From positions 62,001-126,000 of the forward strand of contig NZ_JACVON010000002.1 of the NCBI RefSeq assembly GCF_018882385.1: DNA of 64,000 nucleotides, written 5' to 3'. This document shows positions 53,355-64,000 of this stretch, piece by piece. Position 1 is the first letter of the stretch, and each line of letters begins with the position of its first letter. The translations under genes and the position numbers were made by a program. The stretch is from Polynucleobacter sp. 30F-ANTBAC (GTDB lineage Bacteria > Pseudomonadota > Gammaproteobacteria > Burkholderiales > Burkholderiaceae). The notes beneath the pieces are model-generated. The model was not told where the DNA came from. It searched no databases and worked only from the letters and a program-made list of their open reading frames with translations.

Positions 53355-55175
53355 ATGTGTGGAATTGTTGGCGCTGTTGCTAAACGAAATGTTGTCGGTA
53401 TTTTGGTTGAAGGACTTCGTCGTCTTGAATACAGGGGCTATGATTCTTGCGGCTTTGCATTGTTATCCGATGGTCATTTGGTTCGTGCACGAACCACAGC
53501 GAGGGTTTCTGATTTAGGGGATCAAGGTCAGACAATGTCTGGCAACATCGGCATAGCGCATACTCGCTGGGCCACTCACGGCAAGCCAGACACAGTAAAT
53601 GCCCATCCACATTTTTCAAATGATCTGATTGGGTTAGTTCACAACGGCATCATTGAAAACTACGAAGAGTTAAGAGCCGAGCTGCAAGCAGCAGGATATG
53701 TATTTGTTTCGCAAACGGATACAGAGGTCATTGCGCACCTGATTCATCAAACATATGTGAAGATGGATAAAAGAGATTTGGCTCAAGCTGTTAGGGCAAC
53801 GGTGCCTAAGTTGCATGGCGCTTATGCTATTGGTGTTATTGCTCAGGATGAGCCAGGGGTTTTGGTTGGTGCGCGCGTTGGCTCGCCATTGGTTGTTGCT
53901 TATGGTGAGCATGAAAACTTTCTTGCTTCAGATGCCTTAGCTGTTGCGGAGCATGCTAATGCTATGTCTTACCTTGAAGAGGGAGACATAGCTGTTTTAA
54001 CAACAGATGCGGTCATCATTACAAACATTGATGGTGTCATTCAAACACGTGCCAAGAAAGAGGTTCCCGCACAAGTGGCGGCAGTAGATCTAGGGCCTTA
54101 TCAGCACTATATGCAAAAAGAGATTTTTGAGCAGCCTCGTGCTATCAGTGACACCTTGGGGCACGCGCAAAATGCAGACCCTGCTTTATTTGGAGCAACA
54201 TCTGCTGATTGGAAAAAAATTGACAGTGTTTTAATTTTGGCATGTGGCACTAGCTATTATGCTGCCAGTACTGCTAAATATTGGCTTGAAGACTTGGCTG
54301 GCATTTCAACTCAAGTTGAAATCGCTAGCGAGTATCGATACCGTAAGACAGTCCCGAATCCAAATGCTTTGGTAATTGTTGTTTCTCAGTCTGGTGAAAC
54401 CGCTGATACATTGGCGGCATTAAGGCACGCCCAATCATTAGGTCACACAGAAACTCTGGCTGTATGCAATGTGGCAACGAGTGCGATGGTGAGAGAAACC
54501 AAGTATTGTTTTCTGACTCATGCTGGAACTGAAATTGGCGTAGCATCGACAAAAGCATTTACAACTCAGTTGGTAGGTTTATATTTGCTAGCGCTTACAC
54601 TGGCTAAGCATCGCCATCTTTTAACTGATGCTCAAGAAAAAAATGCATTTAATCGTCTGCGTCATTTGCCATCCGCAATCAATGCGGCCTTAGCGCTTGA
54701 ACCACAAATCATTGCTTGGAGTGAAGCATTTGCTAAGTGTGAGAACGCATTGTTTTTAGGTCGTGGTTTGCATTACCCCATTGCTTTAGAGGGAGCTCTT
54801 AAGCTGAAGGAAATTTCTTATATTCATGCTGAAGCCTATCCAGCAGGAGAGCTTAAGCATGGGCCATTGGCTTTGGTAACAGATAAGATGCCTGTTGTAA
54901 CTGTGGCGCCCAATGATTCATTGTTGGAAAAATTAAAGTCGAATATGCAAGAAGTTAAAGCGCGAGGCGGAAAGCTTTATGTTTTTGCAGATTCAGATAC
55001 TCAAATTACGGCTAGCGAAGGCATTCATGTGATTCGCATGCCTGAGCACTATGGTGATCTCTCACCTATCTTGCACGTTATACCTTTGCAACTATTGGCT
55101 TACCACACAGCATGTGCCATCGGCACGGATGTTGATAAACCAAGGAACCTCGCAAAATCAGTTACGGTGGAGTAG
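53355..55175 (+). CDS. glmS: Glutamine-fructose-6-phosphate aminotransferase
   Basis: A 606-residue enzyme making glucosamine-6-phosphate. The N-terminal glutaminase starts [12 protein letters not shown] with the catalytic Cys at position 2; [13 protein letters not shown] follows. Two SIS domains carry [19 protein letters not shown] and [36 protein letters not shown], and the end is [11 protein letters not shown]. The conserved end is the Tn7-type target in many bacteria; here core genome gives way to accessory DNA right after it. Confidence 0.97.
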
Positions 55176-55200: not shown

Positions 55201-55245
55201 AAGCCCTCGAGTTCGATTTTCAATTGTATTAAGAACCAAGGGCTT
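55201..55245 (+). promoter_or_regulatory. Long-loop inverted repeat after glmS
   Basis: AAGCCCT (55201-55207) pairs with AGGGCTT (55239-55245) across a 31-base loop. The right arm contains the AAGGG that could be the ribosome-binding site of the next gene. There is no T-run, so it is not a clear terminator. Confidence 0.3.
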
Positions 55246-55246
55246 G

Positions 55247-55495
55247 ATGATTGGTTCGTATTCAGCCTATCAAATAGAGCTGTCAAATCGAGTTATCTCC
55301 CTGAGAGACCTTAAAAGACTCACATTTAAGGATATAGCTGAACTTTTGAAATCAGAAGGTTATAAATCTCCAAGAGGATTTGATCTTGGAGCTGAAAGCG
55401 TATTTTCAATCTATAAAAAAAGAAAAATCAGAGATTTTCGACTCGAGGCTTCACCGAGTATTAGTCTGAAAGATTTAGATGTCAGTCAGTTATGA
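55247..55495 (+). CDS. Small putative helix-turn-helix protein
   Basis: An 82-residue protein. LRDLKRLTFKDIAELLKSEGYKSPRGFDLGAESVFSIYKKRK looks like the helix-turn-helix of serine recombinases ('I...L...G..TPRG...SA..V..I') but there is no catalytic domain. It may bind DNA as a small regulator or accessory factor. It is the first gene after glmS and is AT-rich like the region to its right. Confidence 0.45.
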   Translation: MIGSYSAYQIELSNRVISLRDLKRLTFKDIAELLKSEGYKSPRGFDLGAESVFSIYKKRKIRDFRLEASPSISLKDLDVSQL

Positions 55496-56022: not shown

Positions 56023-56208
56023 CTATTTTGGCTCTGGGAAATATGAAACTCTTTCAAGTTCGATCTCTTGATTAGATCTAAGAGTCTCTCCTTGGTGTAC
56101 TTGACTCCCGACTTCTCCACTTGTTTCGCTATTTGATCTGACATTCTTTTTTTCCTTTTCTTTCTTTTTTCTTTGGTGGTTTACCCACTCTATAAATCCC
56201 ATCATCAA
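56023..56208 (-). CDS. Small charged protein coupled to an RHH-like gene
   Basis: A 61-residue hydrophilic protein with a Lys/Glu run (KKKEKEKK) and Ser/Glu-rich remainder, probably unfolded alone. Its start overlaps the stop of the upstream ribbon-helix-helix-like gene by 4 bp, which supports it being real. No function is evident. Confidence 0.4.
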   Translation of the reverse strand: MMMGFIEWVNHQRKKKEKEKKNVRSNSETSGEVGSQVHQGETLRSNQEIELERVSYFPEPK

Positions 56209-56402
56209 AACATTTCCTTTCTGGCTCGTTGAAAATTTTCACTGTTATTCCAGTGTTCATTTAGAAAACGCTTAAGACAGTACCTAACAACCTCGGAACG
56301 GTTGTAACCAAGTCGATCACATAATTGCTGAAATTTATGTGTGAAGTCATTGGTGGCTCTGAAAGCGAAAATATGGTTTTTTTGGATTTGGTCCTTTAAC
56401 AC
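56205..56402 (-). CDS. Ribbon-helix-helix-like DNA-binding protein
   Basis: A 65-residue protein from a GTG start, with AAGGAG 7 bp upstream. HIFAFRATNDFTHKFQQLCDRLGYNRSEVVRYCLKRFL has the RHH order: a short strand, helix one, a turn with Asn-Arg-Ser-Glu, helix two. Such proteins are copy-control, antitoxin or relaxosome regulators on plasmids and islands. The divergent gene at 56493 shares its promoter region, so autoregulation is plausible. Confidence 0.6.
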   Translation of the reverse strand: MLKDQIQKNHIFAFRATNDFTHKFQQLCDRLGYNRSEVVRYCLKRFLNEHWNNSENFQRARKEMF

Positions 56403-56492
56403 AACGAAACTCCTTGTTTTTGGTCTTTTTTCTATTTAGTCAATTTTTTACTTTCGTAATTTTTGATAAATAAAAGAAATAAAGGAGACAAA

Positions 56493-57035
56493 ATGATCAA
56501 TACCTTAACTGCTCGTGGTCGAATGTTTGAAATCTCTATAAAACCCATTTCAAAGATGGAATTTAAGGAGTTATACAAAAAAGGTCGTAAAACTGAGCTT
56601 TATAAACAGTTATATGAGGCTACAACCTTCGAAAACGACCTATACGGGTTTCAGATGGACAAGGGAAGGGGTAACCTTGAAATGTATTTGAACGGGGTTT
56701 CTCTAGAGCTTAAAAAGACTCTATGGATGAAATACGAGATAACTCATTTACCAGTTGATGGGTCAATTCATCCAATTAGCGGTGTACAAGAATATTATTT
56801 TGTATCTGAGACGGGTTTTGTAAGTGGAGAATCAGAGCTTAAGTTCAAGGGGGAATATAGGGGGGATGAGCTAAGGTTTGAAGTTGAACGAAGGGGTCTA
56901 TTCGACAAGACCTGCTCATCGATATTAAACCCTACATACAGGGGTCAGTATTTAAGCTTAATTTGGAATTGGTCTGGATACAAAAATCAGTATTTAATCA
57001 CTTCGAAGGGAAAGCGATACCCTTTGATTAACTAA
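56493..57035 (+). CDS. Unknown protein, 180 aa
   Basis: The ATG at 56493 follows AAAGGAG at good spacing; a frame open to 56463 has no ribosome-binding site. The protein is basic and aromatic-rich (MEFKELYKKGRKTELYKQLYE, LSLIWNWSGYKNQYL) with no signal or membrane segment. I do not recognise it. It is convergent with the tail-anchored protein gene, whose stop is immediately adjacent. Confidence 0.5.
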   Translation: MINTLTARGRMFEISIKPISKMEFKELYKKGRKTELYKQLYEATTFENDLYGFQMDKGRGNLEMYLNGVSLELKKTLWMKYEITHLPVDGSIHPISGVQEYYFVSETGFVSGESELKFKGEYRGDELRFEVERRGLFDKTCSSILNPTYRGQYLSLIWNWSGYKNQYLITSKGKRYPLIN

Positions 57036-58583
57036 TTACTTACCGATAATGTAACCAATGGCTAAAGCGATTAATACATAAATCCACGGAAAATCCCCAG
57101 ACTTAACTAACCCGTTTTTCATAGCTGAGAATTGTTGTGAGATTTGGGATGTGACACCCTCGGAGTTGGTTGATACGACATCAATTTTTTTAGATAGTAC
57201 AGCAATTTGTTCCGAGAGATTTTTAATCTGCTGATTAACGCTTGATGAATCGCTTGAATTTGAATTAGCAATTTTTTCTTTAATTTCATCAAGTCTTGTA
57301 TTCAATTCAAAAATACTGGTCTCCTTTGAATCTAATGGACTATCTTCATCGAAGTCAAAAATGCTACTAATGTAAAGTTCAGCATCTTTTCTGTTAGAAA
57401 GTTCGTTAAGTTTGTAGTCATAGAAAGAAGTAACTCTATCCCAGTCATCGATACCATCTGGCTCTTTGAAATTATGAATAGCATCTGAGAAATGCTTACC
57501 AATCGACCTATTTCTCTTTAAGAAGAGCCCTTCGTTATCAGTTAAGCCAAGTAAAAATGGGCGACCATATTTTTGTAAATATGAGTCAAATTTATTAATT
57601 GTTAACTTTGATAAATTGTATGAGCTAAAGGCTCCCGAGAAATAACCTTGAGTAATGTGGAAATCATTTTTACTTAACAGGAATTCTTCAAGGTCTACAA
57701 AATATAGAGAAGATATTTTCTGAACTGTATATTTTTTAATTTGATGGTAGATGTCAAAGGTTTGTGATTGACCTTTATCTTCATCTTGAGCATTTCTAAC
57801 CCATCTAGAGAAAACAATATTAAGAAAAGCTTTGTGTGATTGAATCGAATTTTCTTTCCAAAGTTTTCTGTCCTCGCTAAGACCGAGTGTCTGAGAAAAA
57901 CTGTATGGAATCGATAGCTCTTGAAACTTTGGGAGTGTATTTGTAAGTAAAGATGCTGTTAAGTCACTTACAGGAAGTGTTAATAATAGATTCCAATAAC
58001 CTGATATGACACCGTGTTGAGAAATATCGTAATCTCGATCGTCCTCTGGTTCTGCTAAGACGGTTGGATTTCTAAGTAACTCAAAAAGGATATTGAAGTA
58101 TCGATCTTCGTTTACATCTTTACACCAATCTTTTTTCTCAAGGGCTTGATCAATTACCTCAAAAGGAATGTACGTATTTGAAAATAAAGTTTCTATATGT
58201 TCATCTGAACTATTTTTAGCTATCCACTCAATTCTTTTTGATAGCCAAGGTTTGGCTGAGTAAAGACCTGAGACTGCTAGTTTGTTAGATAAAATTGCTG
58301 TAAGAACAGATGAGTCAATCACTGAATCTTTAGTGTGTCTGGTTAATAAAGTTTCTATTAGCTCTGAATCTCCAATTACAAGAGCTAAACCAATATCAAT
58401 AACCCTATTATTCCGATTCAATAAAGCCTTAGCCGTTGATTCTGGAAACTGACATTCATCATATAACCACCTTTTCCCGTCGGGGACTGATTTAGATTTT
58501 TCTTGAAGATATGTCAGTACCTCAGACGGAGAGGCTGACAAAAGAAACTCTTTCTCAATAATTTCAATGCTTTGCTTACCCAT
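57036..58583 (-). CDS. Large tail-anchored protein with coiled coil
   Basis: A 515-residue unknown protein from the ATG at 58583 (MGKQSIEII). Residues 1-400 look helical with Leu/Trp-rich repeats, somewhat like a HEAT-type solenoid. Then comes a coiled coil (LDEIKEKIA... and IKNLSEQIAVLSKKIDVV) and a single C-terminal hydrophobic helix (FPWIYVLIALAIGYIIG). The main body would therefore be cytoplasmic and held at the membrane by its tail. A membrane-tethered effector or partition factor is possible but unproven. It follows the Rep-like gene by 48 bp. Confidence 0.5.
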   Translation of the reverse strand: MGKQSIEIIEKEFLLSASPSEVLTYLQEKSKSVPDGKRWLYDECQFPESTAKALLNRNNRVIDIGLALVIGDSELIETLLTRHTKDSVIDSSVLTAILSNKLAVSGLYSAKPWLSKRIEWIAKNSSDEHIETLFSNTYIPFEVIDQALEKKDWCKDVNEDRYFNILFELLRNPTVLAEPEDDRDYDISQHGVISGYWNLLLTLPVSDLTASLLTNTLPKFQELSIPYSFSQTLGLSEDRKLWKENSIQSHKAFLNIVFSRWVRNAQDEDKGQSQTFDIYHQIKKYTVQKISSLYFVDLEEFLLSKNDFHITQGYFSGAFSSYNLSKLTINKFDSYLQKYGRPFLLGLTDNEGLFLKRNRSIGKHFSDAIHNFKEPDGIDDWDRVTSFYDYKLNELSNRKDAELYISSIFDFDEDSPLDSKETSIFELNTRLDEIKEKIANSNSSDSSSVNQQIKNLSEQIAVLSKKIDVVSTNSEGVTSQISQQFSAMKNGLVKSGDFPWIYVLIALAIGYIIGK

Positions 58584-58631
58584 ATTAGAAATTTCCAATA
58601 ATTTTTATAAGATTAGATTACTATAAATCGT

Positions 58632-59210
58632 TTAGTAATCCCATTCATTTCTGAATACTTTTGGAGTTTTCCCTTTTTTAAGATAATTAACCCATTTCCA
58701 AGCCTCATCTACTCTTAAAGGCTCAATAAAAAAAGAAGAAACGGTACGAATTGATGATAGATCTTTGGCTAACCTCTTCGTTATAGAGCCATCGCTTAAA
58801 TTAAATATCTTGGGTACCAAGAAATTAGGTATCGGAACTATTCCGTGAATATGGTGGGGTGAATTTGATTGTGGAATCGGCTTAAAAAAACTACCAACAT
58901 CATATTCGTACTCATATAAGCACTCGTATGGTATTAATTTGTCCCACTGATTTCGAGAGCTAGATAGATTTTTTTTGATTTTCCATAAAACTTTATGTAA
59001 ATACTCGTCAATTGTGGCTCCTCTAATTCCATCGGTCACATTCACTACCTCTAGATTTGTAAATGTCGTAGTGATAGTAAATTTAGCCCATTCATTATTT
59101 GACACAATGAAATCAATGATTCTGTCATAGTGTTTTATCGGGGTGACACGAGCCTTACTCTCAATTTCAGACCCATATCTTCTTTGATATTCAGTTGATT
59201 CATTAATCAT
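58632..59210 (-). CDS. HUH-endonuclease-like (rolling-circle Rep) protein
   Basis: A 192-residue protein carrying, in order, the three motifs of single-Tyr rolling-circle Rep enzymes. Motif 1 is WAKFTITTTFTN (41-52), motif 2 is HHIHGIVPIP with the metal-binding HxH at 120-122, and motif 3 is VNYLKK with the YxxK Tyr at 176. Such enzymes nick one strand at a hairpin and bind the 5' end. No helicase domain is present. The length fits small plasmid or transposon Reps. The assignment rests on motifs only. A 10-bp inverted repeat lies about 105 bp upstream. Confidence 0.6.
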   Translation of the reverse strand: MINESTEYQRRYGSEIESKARVTPIKHYDRIIDFIVSNNEWAKFTITTTFTNLEVVNVTDGIRGATIDEYLHKVLWKIKKNLSSSRNQWDKLIPYECLYEYEYDVGSFFKPIPQSNSPHHIHGIVPIPNFLVPKIFNLSDGSITKRLAKDLSSIRTVSSFFIEPLRVDEAWKWVNYLKKGKTPKVFRNEWDY

Positions 59211-59376: not shown

Positions 59377-59787
59377 TTAATGAAGGCTTGTGGCTTCATC
59401 TCTAAAGTATTTCAAATAGTTTTGTAAATCAGCGATTCGAAACGGATTTTTGGGTGATAGAGCTTTAATATAAAAACAGAGATGAATCCTAGAACACGCT
59501 TCACACTTATAACAAACTACATTGTTGATTAGAGATGTATAAGGAGTGTTAGCTAGAGATTTAATTTTAGATTCCAAATCAATTAAAAGATCTTCATCTG
59601 TTTCCTTTACTCCGAATTCAAAGTATTGGTATGTGTCATCACGACCTAAGTTAAAGCTTGTAGGAGTTAGACCAAATTCAATAAGGTTTGATTCAATGTA
59701 CATTACTTGATTCTTGAAATCAGTAACCATTGGCTTGAGGTATGGGGAAGTGTGTGCTTTGAACACTGGATTTTGTTTACTAATCAT
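59377..59787 (-). CDS. Unknown protein coupled to the clamp-loader gene, 136 aa
   Basis: The ATG at 59787 overlaps the stop of the clamp-loader gene by 8 bp, so translation is coupled. The protein is acidic. A Cys-rich centre (NNVVCYKCEACSRIHLCFYI) with CxxC could bind a metal. No family is recognised. By position it may be a partner of the clamp loader, as gp62 is of gp44 in T4, but there is no visible sequence support. Confidence 0.5.
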   Translation of the reverse strand: MISKQNPVFKAHTSPYLKPMVTDFKNQVMYIESNLIEFGLTPTSFNLGRDDTYQYFEFGVKETDEDLLIDLESKIKSLANTPYTSLINNVVCYKCEACSRIHLCFYIKALSPKNPFRIADLQNYLKYFRDEATSLH

Positions 59788-60421
59788 TATTTGATCCTTT
59801 ACTTTGTAGCTCGAATTGAAGTCTTTTGAGCATTTGTCTAATATCTGGAAAACAATCACCAACGATTGCTCGAAGCTGTGGCTCGGGAACGGCTGAATAA
59901 CCCTCAAGGCTGGAAATATTTTTAAGCCTTTTCATAACTCGAGCTCTAGTCTGTTCAGAATTGATAAGGTCGAAGTTGACAGGTAAGAACCTTGACTTAA
60001 TAGCGCCCATTAACCTGTCTGGGTAGTTAGCCGTCATAATGAAATCATTAGAAGCGTCAAACTGTTCAACGAATCCACGAAGCCCAGCTTGAGCGTCCTT
60101 TGACAAGAAGTCGGCTTCATCAAAAAGAATTAAGCGTCTTTCTCCGTACACATTGACTGTTGAACAAACTCGTTCGAGGTCTCTAATTAAATCTATGGAT
60201 CGATTGAGGGTACAGTTAATGTAGTAAGTGTTATCAGGATTGATTAGCTTGGCTACCGTAGTTTTTCCACATCCAGGGCTTCCATAAAACAAGAGTGACA
60301 TACCACCACCTTTACTTGAGACAGCTCTAAGGCTGTCTTCAAGGTGTTTAGGTAGTATGACTTCCTCGAACTTGAGTGGACGATATTTCGAAGCCCAATC
60401 AGGGCTTTTATTGGAAGTCAT
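59780..60421 (-). CDS. Phage T4 gp44/RFC-like clamp-loader AAA+ ATPase, short form
   Basis: A 213-residue AAA+ protein. It opens with WASKYRPLKFEEVILPKHL, the RFC/gp44 signature. Walker A is GSPGCGKTT (47-55), Walker B ILFDEAD (98-104), sensor 1 FIMTANYPD near 130 and the arginine-finger segment IKSRF (R144). The lid region follows, but the protein ends where the collar domain should begin (T4 gp44 is 319 residues). Clamp loaders open sliding clamps with ATP. Bacterial DnaX is different, so this is phage- or archaeal-type. It has a strong AAGGAG site and sits in an operon with an unknown gene on each side. Confidence 0.8.
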   Translation of the reverse strand: MTSNKSPDWASKYRPLKFEEVILPKHLEDSLRAVSSKGGGMSLLFYGSPGCGKTTVAKLINPDNTYYINCTLNRSIDLIRDLERVCSTVNVYGERRLILFDEADFLSKDAQAGLRGFVEQFDASNDFIMTANYPDRLMGAIKSRFLPVNFDLINSEQTRARVMKRLKNISSLEGYSAVPEPQLRAIVGDCFPDIRQMLKRLQFELQSKGSNND

Positions 60422-60430
60422 AAATTCTCC

Positions 60431-61042
60431 TTAAACTGTGGCTACGGTTGGTTTAAGAAATTCCTCAAGTGACGATCCAATTTGAACTTCAGCTGAATCA
60501 ATATTTTCACATTCATTAAGAATTTTTTGAATTTTCTGAGTGATCTTGTCTGAAGGTTCCTTACTTAATACAACCTTGAATTCAAAACCACCTTTCTTTA
60601 CTGTTCTATTCGGAACGGTTTTTGACTTGGTAGCTTGAGAGCTTGGATCAGTTATAGATTTAAGCTCTTTTGATTTCAAGTCTGGGTTGATCAATCCAAC
60701 ATCCACATACTTAACTATGTCATCGGGTGAGATTAATGAGATCTGATAAAGAGTGGTCCAGCTGGCTGGTAACGAGTTGATATTTTTCTTTAATAATTCA
60801 TACTTTTCACCAATTTTGATGAGTTTTCTTAAAGTACTTGATTGAGTTTCAAAACCAATTAAGTGACAAAAGTTTTTATATCTTTGACCCTTCAATTCAA
60901 GGTTCGCTTTTGTTGTAATCCGAGCCATTTCAAGAATATTGTCGGCTGTTTTCACAAAGTAGCTCTTGAAGTCTTGAGCCAATTGGATTACATTTTTATC
61001 TGAAATTTCGTTATTTGTGTTGTTAATAGTAATTGTATTCAT
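60431..61042 (-). CDS. DUF3102-like phage or plasmid protein, 203 aa
   Basis: A 203-residue protein. ADNILEMARITTKANLELKG near residue 33, then FCHLIGFETQSSTLRKLIKIGEKYELL and LPASWTTLYQISLI, resembles proteins encoded near replication genes of phages and plasmids (DUF3102-like, ParB/KorB-type helical domains). The C-terminal part is Lys-rich with a small separate domain. It probably binds DNA. It is first in the operon with the clamp loader (9 bp gap), behind a divergent control region. Confidence 0.55.
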   Translation of the reverse strand: MNTITINNTNNEISDKNVIQLAQDFKSYFVKTADNILEMARITTKANLELKGQRYKNFCHLIGFETQSSTLRKLIKIGEKYELLKKNINSLPASWTTLYQISLISPDDIVKYVDVGLINPDLKSKELKSITDPSSQATKSKTVPNRTVKKGGFEFKVVLSKEPSDKITQKIQKILNECENIDSAEVQIGSSLEEFLKPTVATV

Positions 61043-61201: not shown

Positions 61202-61927
61202 ATGAAAAATACGAGAAAAAAGCCTTTAAGACACTTTCCATATAAACATCCCACCTTTGGTACAGAAAAGAATCCAAAAAGTGAAAAACATTGGAAATCG
61301 AGTGTTTATTACTGGTGGTGGGCTTATCTAAAAAGAAATGAGGAATACCTTGAGTGTTGTAACCGAGGTGGTAAAGGAAAGCTTTCAAGCCTCTATAAAG
61401 ATTTTGGAGATGTGAGGTGTGATAGTTTCAAAGCTTGGTGGAGTGAAGGGGATCGTGGGGCTGAGTTATTCGCTGACCCACCAGCTGAAGAATCTATAAG
61501 AATCCTCAAGAAGGATGATCAATATACTTTTAGTGAGGATGTTTTGAATATCTCCTTTCCAATGAACCTTCCAAAGAGATTTTTGGAGACAAGGTTTAAG
61601 GAAATCCTGTCAGAACATCACAAGGGGAAAAGGGGTCATCAGATAGCCAAGCGAAGTTCAGCCAAATATAAGGTTAGCGGTCAACCCAATGTTCCGTCCC
61701 TTGAAATATCTTTGAAGGTTTACGACGCCCATTTAGCTGAGCCTACTAAGCCATTATGGAAAATAGGTAACGACACTCCGAATGTAATCAGAACTCAGAA
61801 AATAAAAGCTAGCGATGATGTTCATACAGTAATAGGTAAAAAACGAGCTTTAGCTATTACTGTAAGTAGATATATCAAGCGAGTTAGGGAGAATATATCT
61901 AATACAAGTTTGGGTGCTTTTCCCTAA
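61202..61927 (+). CDS. Trp-rich conserved hypothetical protein, 241 aa
   Basis: A basic protein. The N-terminal half contains SEKHWKSSVYYWWWAYLKRNEEYLEC-like residues and LYKDFGDVRCDSFKAWW, then GAELFADPP. I recall this pattern from mobile elements of aquatic bacteria, without a function. The C-terminal third is Lys/Arg-rich. It is convergent with the lipoprotein gene (3 bp gap). Confidence 0.55.
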   Translation: MKNTRKKPLRHFPYKHPTFGTEKNPKSEKHWKSSVYYWWWAYLKRNEEYLECCNRGGKGKLSSLYKDFGDVRCDSFKAWWSEGDRGAELFADPPAEESIRILKKDDQYTFSEDVLNISFPMNLPKRFLETRFKEILSEHHKGKRGHQIAKRSSAKYKVSGQPNVPSLEISLKVYDAHLAEPTKPLWKIGNDTPNVIRTQKIKASDDVHTVIGKKRALAITVSRYIKRVRENISNTSLGAFP

Positions 61928-61930
61928 GTG

Positions 61931-62485
61931 TTAAAACTTTTTTTGAGTAATTTCACAGCTACCTGATGTGAAAGCTACTTCATATAACTTTTTCCCATCA
62001 ATTTTTGTACTTATGTTTCGTGAAGTGATTTTCCAATCACCACTTAATCTATTAATAGTGGTTTCTGATTTATTTGACCATCCGTCATATTTTTTTGTTG
62101 GTAAGGATGTGTTTTCTTCGGTAATAGTAATTAATTGATCGGCTACTTGAATTAAGGTGTAGATGGTTGGCTTGCTCTCTTGACTTGAATAGGTTGTATT
62201 TTGTGGCTTTTTAACAGTCTTCCCATCTTCTATAACTGTCCACATATAAGCCTCTTCTCGTTTCTGATTTGAATCGCTATCACGAGGCTCTAAAAGAACC
62301 TTTTCAAAAATAAAACTATATGTAGTATTTTTGTCCCAAACTTTTGTGAAAGTTTGATGAGTGTCTCCGCTAAATTGAATGTTTGTCTTACCCGAGCACG
62401 AGAGTAGTATTGGTGGGTTACTCGGTGTTCCTTTACATCCAAAGATAGTTAATAAAGTTACTAAAAGAATTAATTTCAGTTTCAT
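61931..62485 (-). CDS. Lipoprotein of unknown function
   Basis: A 184-residue protein with a lipoprotein signal (LLVTLLTIFGCKG, lipid on the Cys near 17). The mature part is beta-rich with Ser/Thr. It is last in a tight four-gene operon, its ATG one base after the J-domain gene stop (TGATATG). Confidence 0.6.
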   Translation of the reverse strand: MKLKLILLVTLLTIFGCKGTPSNPPILLSCSGKTNIQFSGDTHQTFTKVWDKNTTYSFIFEKVLLEPRDSDSNQKREEAYMWTVIEDGKTVKKPQNTTYSSQESKPTIYTLIQVADQLITITEENTSLPTKKYDGWSNKSETTINRLSGDWKITSRNISTKIDGKKLYEVAFTSGSCEITQKKF

Positions 62486-62486
62486 A

Positions 62487-62858
62487 TCAACTTTTTAGTC
62501 TGATGGCTTCATCGTAAGCAGCGTTAATTTCCTTTGATTTTTTTTGAGCAATCTCATTAAATTCAGGTCCCATAGAACTTACTTTATCAGGGTGATACAT
62601 AGAAATTTTCTTTTTGTAGGCTGTTTTAATATCTGCTAAAGAAGCAGATGGATGAACTTCTAGGATTTCAAACCAAGATTTATTTGTACTACTTTCTTGC
62701 TTTTGTTTTGGTTCATCTTGTTTTTGATATGAATTCTGCTTACTTTGCTGATTAGTTGTCCACTCAGATTCTTTTTTGAAGAATTTAATCAGAGCTGAAG
62801 TACCCCAATAACCTACTAATCCAAGAACAATTACTACCCATACTTCATTACTGGTCAT
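62487..62858 (-). CDS. Membrane-anchored J-domain protein
   Basis: A 123-residue protein: an N-terminal TM helix (VWVVIVLGLVGYWGTSALI), a Gln/Lys-rich linker, and a C-terminal J domain (WFEILEVHPSASLADIKTAYKKKISMYHPDKV) with the HPD motif that stimulates DnaK ATPase. The arrangement (TM first, J last) is like DjlA or TMEM-type anchors but much shorter. It could recruit DnaK to the neighbouring membrane proteins. It overlaps the upstream gene by 11 bp. Confidence 0.8.
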   Translation of the reverse strand: MTSNEVWVVIVLGLVGYWGTSALIKFFKKESEWTTNQQSKQNSYQKQDEPKQKQESSTNKSWFEILEVHPSASLADIKTAYKKKISMYHPDKVSSMGPEFNEIAQKKSKEINAAYDEAIRLKS

Positions 62859-63585
62859 TTTTAATTCCTAACAATTCTTTATAAGATAGGTATTTGAAAG
62901 CCTCGTTCTCATCTACTTGATCAATAGCTTGACTAAGTTTTCTTGAAATGTTGTATTCCAATTCTTCAAGATTCTTAGGTGAATTGACTTGTAATGAGAA
63001 ATAATAGCCATCACAGGTGAACACCTGTTTGTTGTATATTTTTCGGACAATACTTGGAAGATATGCTGGAACAACTAAACAATCAAAAAATATAGAAATT
63101 AATGAGCCATAGGTAAGCCCTAAACCCTTACGACTAATTAGTAATAGGGTTAATGTCATTAACAAAGCCGTAAGGTGTAGCGGTAGTAAAAGTATTAAAG
63201 TGGCTCCAAGACCTTGATAAAAAGTCAAAACTGGTCCAAATAAAAGATATAAAAATGAAACTAAAGAAATCGCCTTAAATGGGAAAGCTACTTTTTGAAG
63301 AGTAATTAACTTTTCCTTTGTATTTTCAAAATTATTTGATGGCTTATCGTTGGGAGCGATGTTTAATTTCAGGAACCCCGTATATGGAATTAATAAGTTT
63401 AATAGCTGTACTTGTTTTCCTTTGATCTCAAATGTATTGAAACTAAAAGAAGGTTTGAACTTACCAGTAAAGGTTTCTGTAATTAGTATTTCTGACTTAC
63501 CTACTAATTTAATACAGTCCAGCAAATAAAAAGCTAGAGCTACTAACCAGAAAAGATATTCGGTGGTTAGTAGCTGATGAATCAT
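62848..63585 (-). CDS. Multi-pass membrane protein, 245 aa
   Basis: An N-terminal TM helix (YLFWLVALAFYLLDCI) is followed by a soluble part and three further hydrophobic segments (residues 100-165), then a C-terminal cytoplasmic or periplasmic tail. I do not know the family. Its start codon overlaps the DUF2167 stop (TAATG), so the genes are co-translated. Confidence 0.55.
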   Translation of the reverse strand: MIHQLLTTEYLFWLVALAFYLLDCIKLVGKSEILITETFTGKFKPSFSFNTFEIKGKQVQLLNLLIPYTGFLKLNIAPNDKPSNNFENTKEKLITLQKVAFPFKAISLVSFLYLLFGPVLTFYQGLGATLILLLPLHLTALLMTLTLLLISRKGLGLTYGSLISIFFDCLVVPAYLPSIVRKIYNKQVFTCDGYYFSLQVNSPKNLEELEYNISRKLSQAIDQVDENEAFKYLSYKELLGIKNDQ

Positions 63586-64000
63586 TATTTTTTTCTTCCA
63601 AAAATTTTCTTAAAGATTGCTCCAATACCAGCTAAAGCAGCTAGAGCTAGGGCTCCCAAGAATTTGAAGCCACCTTTAGAGGCTACAGCTGCTGCTGCGC
63701 CACCAACAACCAAAGCTCCTAAACCATAAGCAGCGATCTTATCTCCGTCTCTAAACTCAGCGTAACGCTCACCATTTACATAATCAAAATCTTGTAAAGC
63801 TACTTTGAATGATTTTATATCTCTGTCTAAGTTAACTGGATCGGAAACAAGCGTAGCACTCATATAACCAGATCTACCAAGAATACGAGTTGTAAAGTTA
63901 ACAATAGGATTGTTTTCGTGGTCTCTCAATTTAGTAGCCCATTCCAATTGCTTAGTTTGTGAGTCGTAGCGAGGTGGGATATACCATCCATCTAGATAAA
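63585..64000 (-). CDS. DUF2167 family membrane protein, C-terminal part (5' end beyond window)
   Basis: The frame is open to the right edge: GWYIPPRYDSQTKQLEWATKLRD is followed by NFTTRILGRSGYMSATLV, ERYAEFRDGDKIAAYGLGALVVGG and a TM helix ending IFKKIFGRKK. This is the C-terminal pattern of DUF2167 (about 280-300 residues in full). An internal TTG at 63947 should not be taken as the start, because family sequence continues upstream. The function is unknown. Confidence 0.8.
   Translation of the reverse strand, partial: YLDGWYIPPRYDSQTKQLEWATKLRDHENNPIVNFTTRILGRSGYMSATLVSDPVNLDRDIKSFKVALQDFDYVNGERYAEFRDGDKIAAYGLGALVVGGAAAAVASKGGFKFLGALALAALAGIGAIFKKIFGRKK

Follow-up and report, generated by a model that had tools for sequence, protein, structure and literature searches.

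A collarless T4-type clamp-loader ATPase in an integrative element of Polynucleobacter

Introduction

What is the role of a clamp-loader ATPase that lacks its collar and is encoded in a bacterial chromosome? The question is raised by a gene for an AAA+ protein of 213 amino acids (aa) in Polynucleobacter sp. 30F-ANTBAC. It lies in a stretch of 64,000 nucleotides (contig NZ_JACVON010000002.1, positions 62,001 to 126,000), which is called the window here and to whose first letter the coordinates refer. An original prediction, made from the letters of the window, had placed the gene between a DUF3102-like and a small CxxC-type gene, and had suggested for its product either a reduced loader using the host beta clamp or an AAA+ machine with another purpose. 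All three open reading frames (ORFs) are present, the CxxC gene overlapping the AAA+ gene (Table 1). The loader gene belongs to a site-specific integrative element at glmS and is not a chromosomal oddity. Genomes and loci used for comparison are denoted by handles such as G040 and L037, respectively.

A clamp-loader ATPase that ends after the lid

The ATG of the AAA+ gene is preceded by AAGGAG, and the protein contains the motifs GSPGCGKT, DEAD, TAN, SRF and FPDIR, which we take to be the catalytic motifs of gp44 and replication factor C (RFC) small subunits. Among the PHROGs profiles the gp44 family phrog_168 matches with an E-value of 4.3e-44 over positions 8-209 of 314, far ahead of the DNA transposition family phrog_296 (2.6e-4). 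In a profile search of the PDB the loader matches archaeal RFC (1.7e-19) and T4 gp44 (about 3e-18), and both matches stop at query residue 202; residues 10-202 of the loader pair with 17-217 of the 324-residue T4 gp44 chain. The identity of phage gp44 proteins to the window's loader is at most 39%. With gp44 (phrog_168; PDB 3u5z, 8unf) the loader shares the whole AAA+ module and the lid, including Walker A and B, sensor 1, arginine finger and sensor 2, but it has no collar and sits on an integrative element beside a partner for which one query per family found no match in phage records. The archaeal and eukaryotic RFC small subunit (NF001679; PDB 1iqp, 2chg) possesses the same AAA+ module, whereas RFC chains run past the lid and 1iqp is matched only to residue 213 of 327.

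The window's chain ends 18 residues past the sensor-2 arginine, i.e. after the lid. It was aligned with its relatives in other elements (53 element loaders in total, a truncated copy, L037, being left out) and with phage relatives from viral contigs, for which the best 80 of 406 confirmed sequences were taken; a scan of viral contigs with the single loader found no relatives. Past the column of the sensor-2 arginine there are 11-20 residues in the DUF3102-type element loaders (5/5), 12-39 in the tyrosine-type (48/48) and 107-121 in the phage proteins (80/80). The C-terminal collar domain, which makes the pentamer, is therefore missing in all 53 element loaders and present in all 80 phage relatives, and the statement that the loader stops before the collar extends from one protein to the whole set. 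The absence of the collar is a property of the lineage and not an accident of the window's copy, and the 213-aa protein itself is clamp-loader-derived and collarless. A frameshift that removed the collar is ruled out, because relatives end at the same point and the next gene in the window's operon starts at once.

Two neighbouring proteins were considered as possible suppliers of a collar. For the DUF3102-like protein this is unsupported: the structural comparison of its model (pLDDT 59.8) is led by the DNA-binding domains of ParB and Spo0J (Z 5.9-5.3), and an RFC chain follows at rank 19 (Z 4.3). The 241-aa protein gave a chance-level PF14840 row (E 0.017, in one of ten proteins), which a PDB profile search did not back.

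The integrative element in glmS

An AT-rich stretch begins after glmS and runs on past the end of the window. The last codons of glmS contain a 14-bp core, GTTACGGTGGAGTA, whose second copy starts at C4:131178, 14,017 bp downstream and beyond the window, at the end of a serine integrase gene. Because of these att repeats and of an empty site in the relative G040, the element is placed at 55161 to 69177 (14,017 bp), and the end of the window at 64000 cuts it in two. In G040, glmS (94% identity of GlmS) is followed after 7 bp by a 225-aa gene, with one copy of the 14-mer; the same gene flanks the window's element on the right. The gene at the element's right end encodes a large serine integrase of 573 aa, in which Resolvase, Recombinase and zinc-ribbon domains were recognised. 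A direct att repeat at both ends, an integrase inside and an empty site in a relative are thus all found, as expected of an integrative element, and the loader is almost certainly a component of its backbone. The initial description of a loader in a bacterial chromosome remains valid for the clamp-loader ancestry and the preserved ATPase residues; what has to be given up is the idea of a lone gene.

Part of the element's ORFs was scanned for known functions. Among these, no polymerase, gp62, primase or helicase was recognised beside the loader, which agrees with the earlier remark that neither polymerase nor gp62 is visible. No clasp-like PHROGs match for gp62 appeared either; the clasp is described as very divergent in PMC8121543. 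Furthermore, no transfer genes and no capsid, terminase or packaging genes were recognised. A phage remnant is ruled out, since no replisome or structural family beyond the loader (and the clamp in relatives) was seen in what was scanned.

Related glmS elements and their gp45-type clamp

Two further genomes of the genus, G073 and G121, carry this backbone at glmS as well, and so does Zwartia panacis (Alcaligenaceae). A fifth glmS element, in a Comamonas metagenome-assembled genome, is cut by the contig end before the loader, and the loader operon is readable in four (window, G073, G121 and Zwartia). The glmS elements have in common genes for an 83-aa protein, a CopG-like regulator, an HUH-motif protein, the loader, the DUF3102-like protein, a 241-aa protein, a resolvase, a 227-aa protein and the large integrase; the stretch read in Zwartia does not reach the large-integrase end, where its gene order is different. 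The cargo comprises a type III restriction-modification system in G121, a type ISP restriction enzyme, PDC-S18 and a WYL regulator in G073, and a Hhe/PDC-S37-like helicase-nuclease in Zwartia. At L228 (G008:C119, 404-759; an 84%-complete genome, 2.5 kb of a 5.6-kb contig read) the same att core and right-flank gene are found, with a 112-aa ORF like the 83-aa protein against the core; this is probably another glmS element.

Three of the four readable elements, all except the window's, encode a gp45-type clamp of 217-231 aa between the loader and HUH genes. It matches phrog_223 in G073 (1e-40), G121 (1.9e-36) and Zwartia (3.8e-42); the Zwartia protein also matches the RB69/T4-type gp45 in the PDB (1.8e-15), and PF09116 was found in both clamps tested. 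These proteins are homologues of gp45 (phrog_223, PF09116; PDB 1b77) encoded next to the loader, but such a clamp is missing from the window's genome and was not seen in the tyrosine-type loci read, and a cognate polymerase gene was not recognised. The Zwartia clamp is 32% and 27% identical to the other two, with corresponding values of 66% and 51% for the loaders; the clamp of the glmS elements evolves fast. At the clamp position the window's element has the CxxC gene, which recurs in G073 (51%) together with a clamp and was not found in G121 and Zwartia. A tblastn search with the three related clamps in the window and 29 kb past its right end gave one chance match (E 0.94), and phrog_223 has no match in the window's genome, so the absence of a visible sliding clamp noted earlier holds for this copy. 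Within the genus phrog_223 is matched in 2 of 186 genomes, G073 and G121, and the search across 399 genomes of the order yielded no match anywhere.

It is conceivable that the clampless copy of the window loads, unloads or sequesters the host DnaN. It keeps its loader residues although no clamp gene was found, and its branch length is similar to that of the clamp-bearing sister (0.41 versus 0.34). On the other hand, its sequence originates from phage gp44, the clamp of which is the gp45 trimer, and this route is judged improbable. The proposed use of the host beta clamp is one possibility for this copy only and does not stand as originally put, because three of the four readable glmS elements carry a T4-type clamp of their own.

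Distribution and genetic neighbourhood

With a profile of the 241-aa protein, 369 class-level genomes gave one further locus and 299 phylum-level genomes gave four. One of these five lies in the window's genus, and a collarless loader adjoins in four; L143 has none beside it. With a 12-sequence loader profile at least 77 loaders were found in 60 of the 186 genus genomes (E<=2.7e-31, frames of 210-270 aa), the counts being lower bounds with up to 16 candidates scored per genome. One of the 77 (G147) has an internal stop. Above the gap in E-values lie also three partial matches (98-133 aa) and a 350-aa frame (L039) that presumably is DnaX; below it, at about E 1e-20, stand frames of what we take to be DnaX and RarA size. 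Among the genus matches listed there is no collar-bearing gp44. A four-loader profile (E<=1e-18, 299 genomes) matched only the window itself, which is a miss due to that threshold and profile, given that the 12-sequence profile finds matches in several of these genomes. Two or three collarless loaders are present in 14 of the 60 genomes (G098, G006, G108 and 11 others); the elements therefore coexist.

The neighbourhoods of 54 loaders were read, 50 of the 77 in the genus and four outside. A partner gene lies immediately upstream on the same strand in 52/54, DUF3102-like in five and of a 260-aa family in 47. The two exceptions are L142, whose contig is 5.5 kb long, and L210, whose 339-aa ORF at the partner position scores below threshold. 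Homology between the 260-aa and the DUF3102-like partner was rejected, hhalign detecting no similarity, and the 260-aa protein of L186 has no match at E<=0.001 in 72,556 plasmids. The 241-aa gene is near the loader in 39/54. Of the three-gene set that had been proposed, the upstream partner is thus usual and often joined by the 241-aa gene, while the CxxC gene is restricted to two of the four glmS elements. Furthermore, no phage replisome was recognised next to the loaders in what was scanned of these neighbourhoods. Homologues are therefore not always found beside one, and neither this nor a frameshift, the two outcomes held beforehand to speak against a reduced loader, was observed.

A small tyrosine recombinase of 188 aa is encoded near the loader in 47/54, the one tested matching PF00589, and a larger integrase, so labelled by mutual similarity, in 41/54; of the latter, the copy of L186 gives only sub-threshold Pfam integrase rows and that of L034 matches the phrog_1 integrase (3.4e-23). 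One loader, the second in L200, has no recombinase within the stretch read. The clamp (3/54) and the HUH gene (4/54) are confined to glmS elements. Since the pair of partner and loader is nearly universal and occurs with two recombinase classes, it can be argued that its function is independent of the recombinase.

These recombinases, together with the serine integrase of three glmS elements, could also mean that excision, integration or the choice of target is governed by the AAA+ protein together with its partner, in the manner of TnsC, MuB or IstB-type ATPases, and the tyrosine-type loaders, whose ATPase core is kept while loader-specific residues drift, would fit such a role. However, the two recombinase classes served by the same module are unrelated, the glmS elements integrate at a fixed att site and need no target selector, and the closest relatives are clamp loaders, phrog_168 being preferred to phrog_296 by many orders of magnitude. 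A recombination helper is thus considered unlikely.

Several further features of these loci were recorded. Eight elements (L177-L182, L035 and L038) form a sub-group with related 237-aa loaders (L178 vs L182 81%) and 258-268-aa partners, in which no 241-aa gene was detected. A 145/146-aa protein is encoded near the small tyrosine recombinase in L186 (1637-2074) and L177 (9491-9931), with DUF6641 in the one tested; ORFs of this size exist in many other loader loci, and the term DUF6641 was not found in the literature searched. Nine tyrosine-type loaders (L186-L190, L192-L195) lie in single-contig assemblies at a distance of about 24-52 kb from the end, which suggests a shared insertion region. 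Plasmid matches to the AAA protein in Pseudanabaena and Tolypothrix concern a protein some 730 aa long and a stretch without annotation. The 241-aa protein has matches on Bradyrhizobium plasmids; two of the three neighbourhoods were read and contain no annotated loader.

Conserved residues and selection

Nine columns are invariant in 50 aligned loaders, which go down to 18% identity to the window's: G47, G50, G52, K53, E102, T130, N132, R144 and R195. We take them to be Walker A, the Walker-B glutamate, sensor 1, the arginine finger and sensor 2. Beyond this core, R80, Q111, R115 and E119 are kept in all five DUF3102-type loaders. Q111 and R115 map to Gln118 and Arg122 of T4 gp44 in our own alignment, a further likeness of the DUF3102-type to gp44; T4 Gln118 couples the catalytic centres to DNA and clamp, according to PMC8121543. 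The Walker-B aspartate is replaced by asparagine in 8/48 tyrosine-type loaders, including the two of the L177-L182/L035/L038 sub-group read residue by residue.

The ratio of nonsynonymous to synonymous substitutions (dN/dS) is 0.03-0.11 in seven of nine loader pairs, six of them tyrosine-type and one glmS-type (G121/Zwartia, with a dS of 2.8 near saturation); in the other two, the window's own among them, dS is saturated. These values point to purifying selection on the relatives of the loader, and the protein is very probably an active, selected ATPase. That the gene is a decaying remnant of a phage loader is hardly compatible with this. The window's element is the only one of the four readable glmS elements without a clamp gene, and the internal stop in G147 could likewise be taken as decay. 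Yet the frame is intact, all catalytic residues and the operon are conserved, relatives show the low dN/dS given above and at least 77 copies exist in 60/186 genomes; this explanation is highly improbable and already largely refuted.

Origins

A tree was calculated from the 53 element loaders, 4 outgroup rows and 34 phage sequences, drawn from the 44 of the 80 that are non-redundant. In it the 48 tyrosine-type loaders are grouped together outside phage gp44, whereas those of G127 and of the four glmS elements branch within the phage gp44 group. The starred branches of the tree force two changes. Placing 32 element loaders, all collarless and grouped by context, in one clade lowers the likelihood by 17.75 (AU test, p 0.041), in a set chosen after the first tree by dropping 21 rows (near-copies and long branches, that of G127 included) and in which long branches are still in play. 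The case for two collar losses is thus marginal. At face value, phage-type loaders would have moved into this slot on a separate occasion and shed the collar a second time, in the glmS lineage together with a clamp.

In a bolder version of this history, the slot took up clamp-loader ATPases on at least two occasions, and the collar disappeared on each of them because the element has its own means of holding the ring together. The glmS elements would then possess a minimal two-gene system, loader and gp45 ring, without a polymerase of its own, which recruits the replisome of the host or of an infecting phage, or RNA polymerase, to the element DNA. We regard this as rather doubtful.

The origin within the phage gp44 clade also brings to mind satellites of T4-like phages. 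Loader and clamp of the glmS elements would recruit or compete for the phage replisome, the element would replicate during infection, and the defence cargo would pay the host. In addition to the DUF3102-type loaders inside that clade, the gp45-type clamp beside the loader and the defence-like cargo, each in three elements, fit such a life style, as does the lack of recognised transfer genes; integrase islands with defence genes moved by jumbo phages provide a precedent (PMC12595487). The lack of recognised packaging functions among the ORFs scanned weighs on the other side. In 50,697 phage records neither the window's DUF3102-like protein nor the 260-aa protein of L186, one query per partner family, is matched at E<=0.001, and the HUH and 241-aa alignments found no relatives in viral contigs, in pattern-limited scans covering phages of other genera. 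Exploitation of a helper phage is therefore unlikely.

Other proteins of the element

The label DUF3102-like is an assumption shared with the original prediction; no Pfam family matched the 203-aa protein. Weak library rows to phrog_134 (E 0.016) and PADLOC PDC-M01A (1.6e-4) were left unused. The 83-aa protein gave only chance-level rows to sigma70 region 4 in Pfam.

In the 192-aa protein F44, T47, F50, the HHIHG block and Y176/K179 are kept in all four glmS elements, a pattern that we presume to be of the HUH type. In its model (pLDDT 72.7), a strand bears the HIH and a helix the tyrosine of a ferredoxin-like fold; this agrees with a candidate HUH nuclease without proving it. No HUH protein is prominent in the Foldseek and VIA rows, which are led by ribosomal protein S6 and other ferredoxin-like folds, and a Sulfolobus transposase stands at Foldseek rank 45.

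C-terminal clamp-binding tails are not claimed. The string SLEEFLKP near the end of the DUF3102-like protein is confined to two of four glmS elements. The G.FP string near the C-terminal end of the 241-aa protein, seen in 38/40 sequences and in most of them after a similar helix-like stretch, is often internal.

The cargo of the window's element contains nothing that could be assigned to a known system. The 520-aa protein (57036-58598), which has a hydrophobic C-terminus and weak rows to the PbeC, DruC and ZorA models (E 9e-4 to 0.04), is a possible defence gene of unknown type. Past the window end the second cargo region leads to the small resolvase, the 227-aa backbone gene and the large serine integrase.

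Table 1 Features of the glmS integrative element within the window
Feature	Coordinates	Strand	Evidence and remarks
attL core GTTACGGTGGAGTA, 14 bp	55161..55174	+	direct repeat; at 3' end/stop codon of glmS (53355-55175)
83-aa backbone protein beside attL	55244..55495	+	63-72% identical to those of four other glmS elements
65-aa CopG-like regulator, backbone	56205..56402	-	phrog_876 1e-4, phrog_7325 5e-4
Variable cargo 1: 190-aa ORF (+), 520-aa ORF (-)	56463..58598	.	no counterpart found in G073, G121, G127
192-aa candidate HUH endonuclease, glmS-element backbone	58632..59210	-	motifs F..T..F, HHIHG, Y..K
136-aa CxxC protein	59377..59787	-	ATG at 59787; overlaps AAA+ gene by 8 nt
Collarless T4-type clamp-loader ATPase, 213 aa (AAA+ module and lid only)	59780..60421	-	ORF, PHROGs and PDB profiles, alignments
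203-aa DUF3102-like partner	60431..61042	-	N-terminal part of low-confidence model like ParB/Spo0J DNA-binding domain
241-aa divergent protein (p241)	61202..61927	+	near collarless loaders in both element types
Variable cargo 2: 184-aa ORF, DnaJ-domain protein, 245-aa ORF, start of DUF2167 protein	61931..64000	-	

Possible function of the loader

We infer that the loader is part of a DNA-processing module for replication or maintenance. In a tentative scheme the element excises, the HUH protein nicks the circle and the DNA-binding partner brings the loader ATPase to the element DNA. The ATPase would act there as an oligomer held by ATP, DNA, clamp or partner in place of the collar; oligomeric work is suggested because the arginine finger is invariant. 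Where a gp45-type ring is encoded, the loader would place it on the element DNA and thus allow processive synthesis. The ATPase of the window's element, which has no ring gene, would act on the host beta clamp or be narrowed to remodelling an initiation complex; in tyrosine-type elements the same slot would be filled by a more derived ATPase. Either the ancestral task was not clamp loading, which was restored in the glmS elements, or the other elements use the host beta clamp. PMC2988020 reports that with crowding agents gp45 no longer depends entirely on its loader, and that it activates late transcription; a weak loader and a non-replicative use are therefore conceivable. Taken as a whole, this mechanism of a partner-delivered loader oligomer acting on element DNA has somewhat less than an even chance of being correct.

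Several observations weigh against it. A collarless loader may simply not load, because the collar is responsible for the oligomerisation of clamp loaders (PMC8121543). Clamp loading cannot be the shared function, because the window's genome and all tyrosine-type loci read are without a clamp. The tyrosine-type loaders keep R80 in 2/48, Q111 in 24/48, R115 in 11/48 (lysine in 36) and E119 in 1/48. The resemblance of the modelled DUF3102-like partner to ParB is weak, and for the HUH-protein model Foldseek gave no match at E<=0.001 and a PDB profile search of the protein found nothing. For the tyrosine-type group, which dropped the loader-specific residues, the initially suggested alternative of an AAA+ machine with another purpose is favoured.

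Significance

The literature searched (titles and abstract openings, with few subscription papers and no preprints) yielded no description of a collarless clamp loader or of a clamp-encoding integrative element. Integrative islands with a large serine integrase and defence cargo resemble the glmS elements in the att duplication, the integrase, the variable cargo and the restriction-modification genes of the relatives; what sets the glmS elements apart is the core they share, made up of the loader ATPase, its partner, p241 and an HUH-motif protein. GInts (PMC5385486) are likewise integrase-driven islands with variable cargo but are built around a ginABCD operon, and the text does not contain the term "AAA". 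In the report on jumbo-phage-transduced islands (PMC12595487), also integrase-driven and with variable cargo, neither "clamp" nor "AAA" occurs. The finding is real and out of the ordinary: a variant clamp-loader ATPase belongs to integrative elements which form a common class and for which no description was found.

With loaders in 60 of the 186 genomes of one genus, this class is widespread there, and the loader and its neighbours give a way to find more of it. A large natural family without the collar but with all ATPase residues, including the arginine finger that acts between subunits, offers a direct test of collar-free clamp-loader function, and the two apparently separate losses of the collar suggest that there is a functional reason for them.

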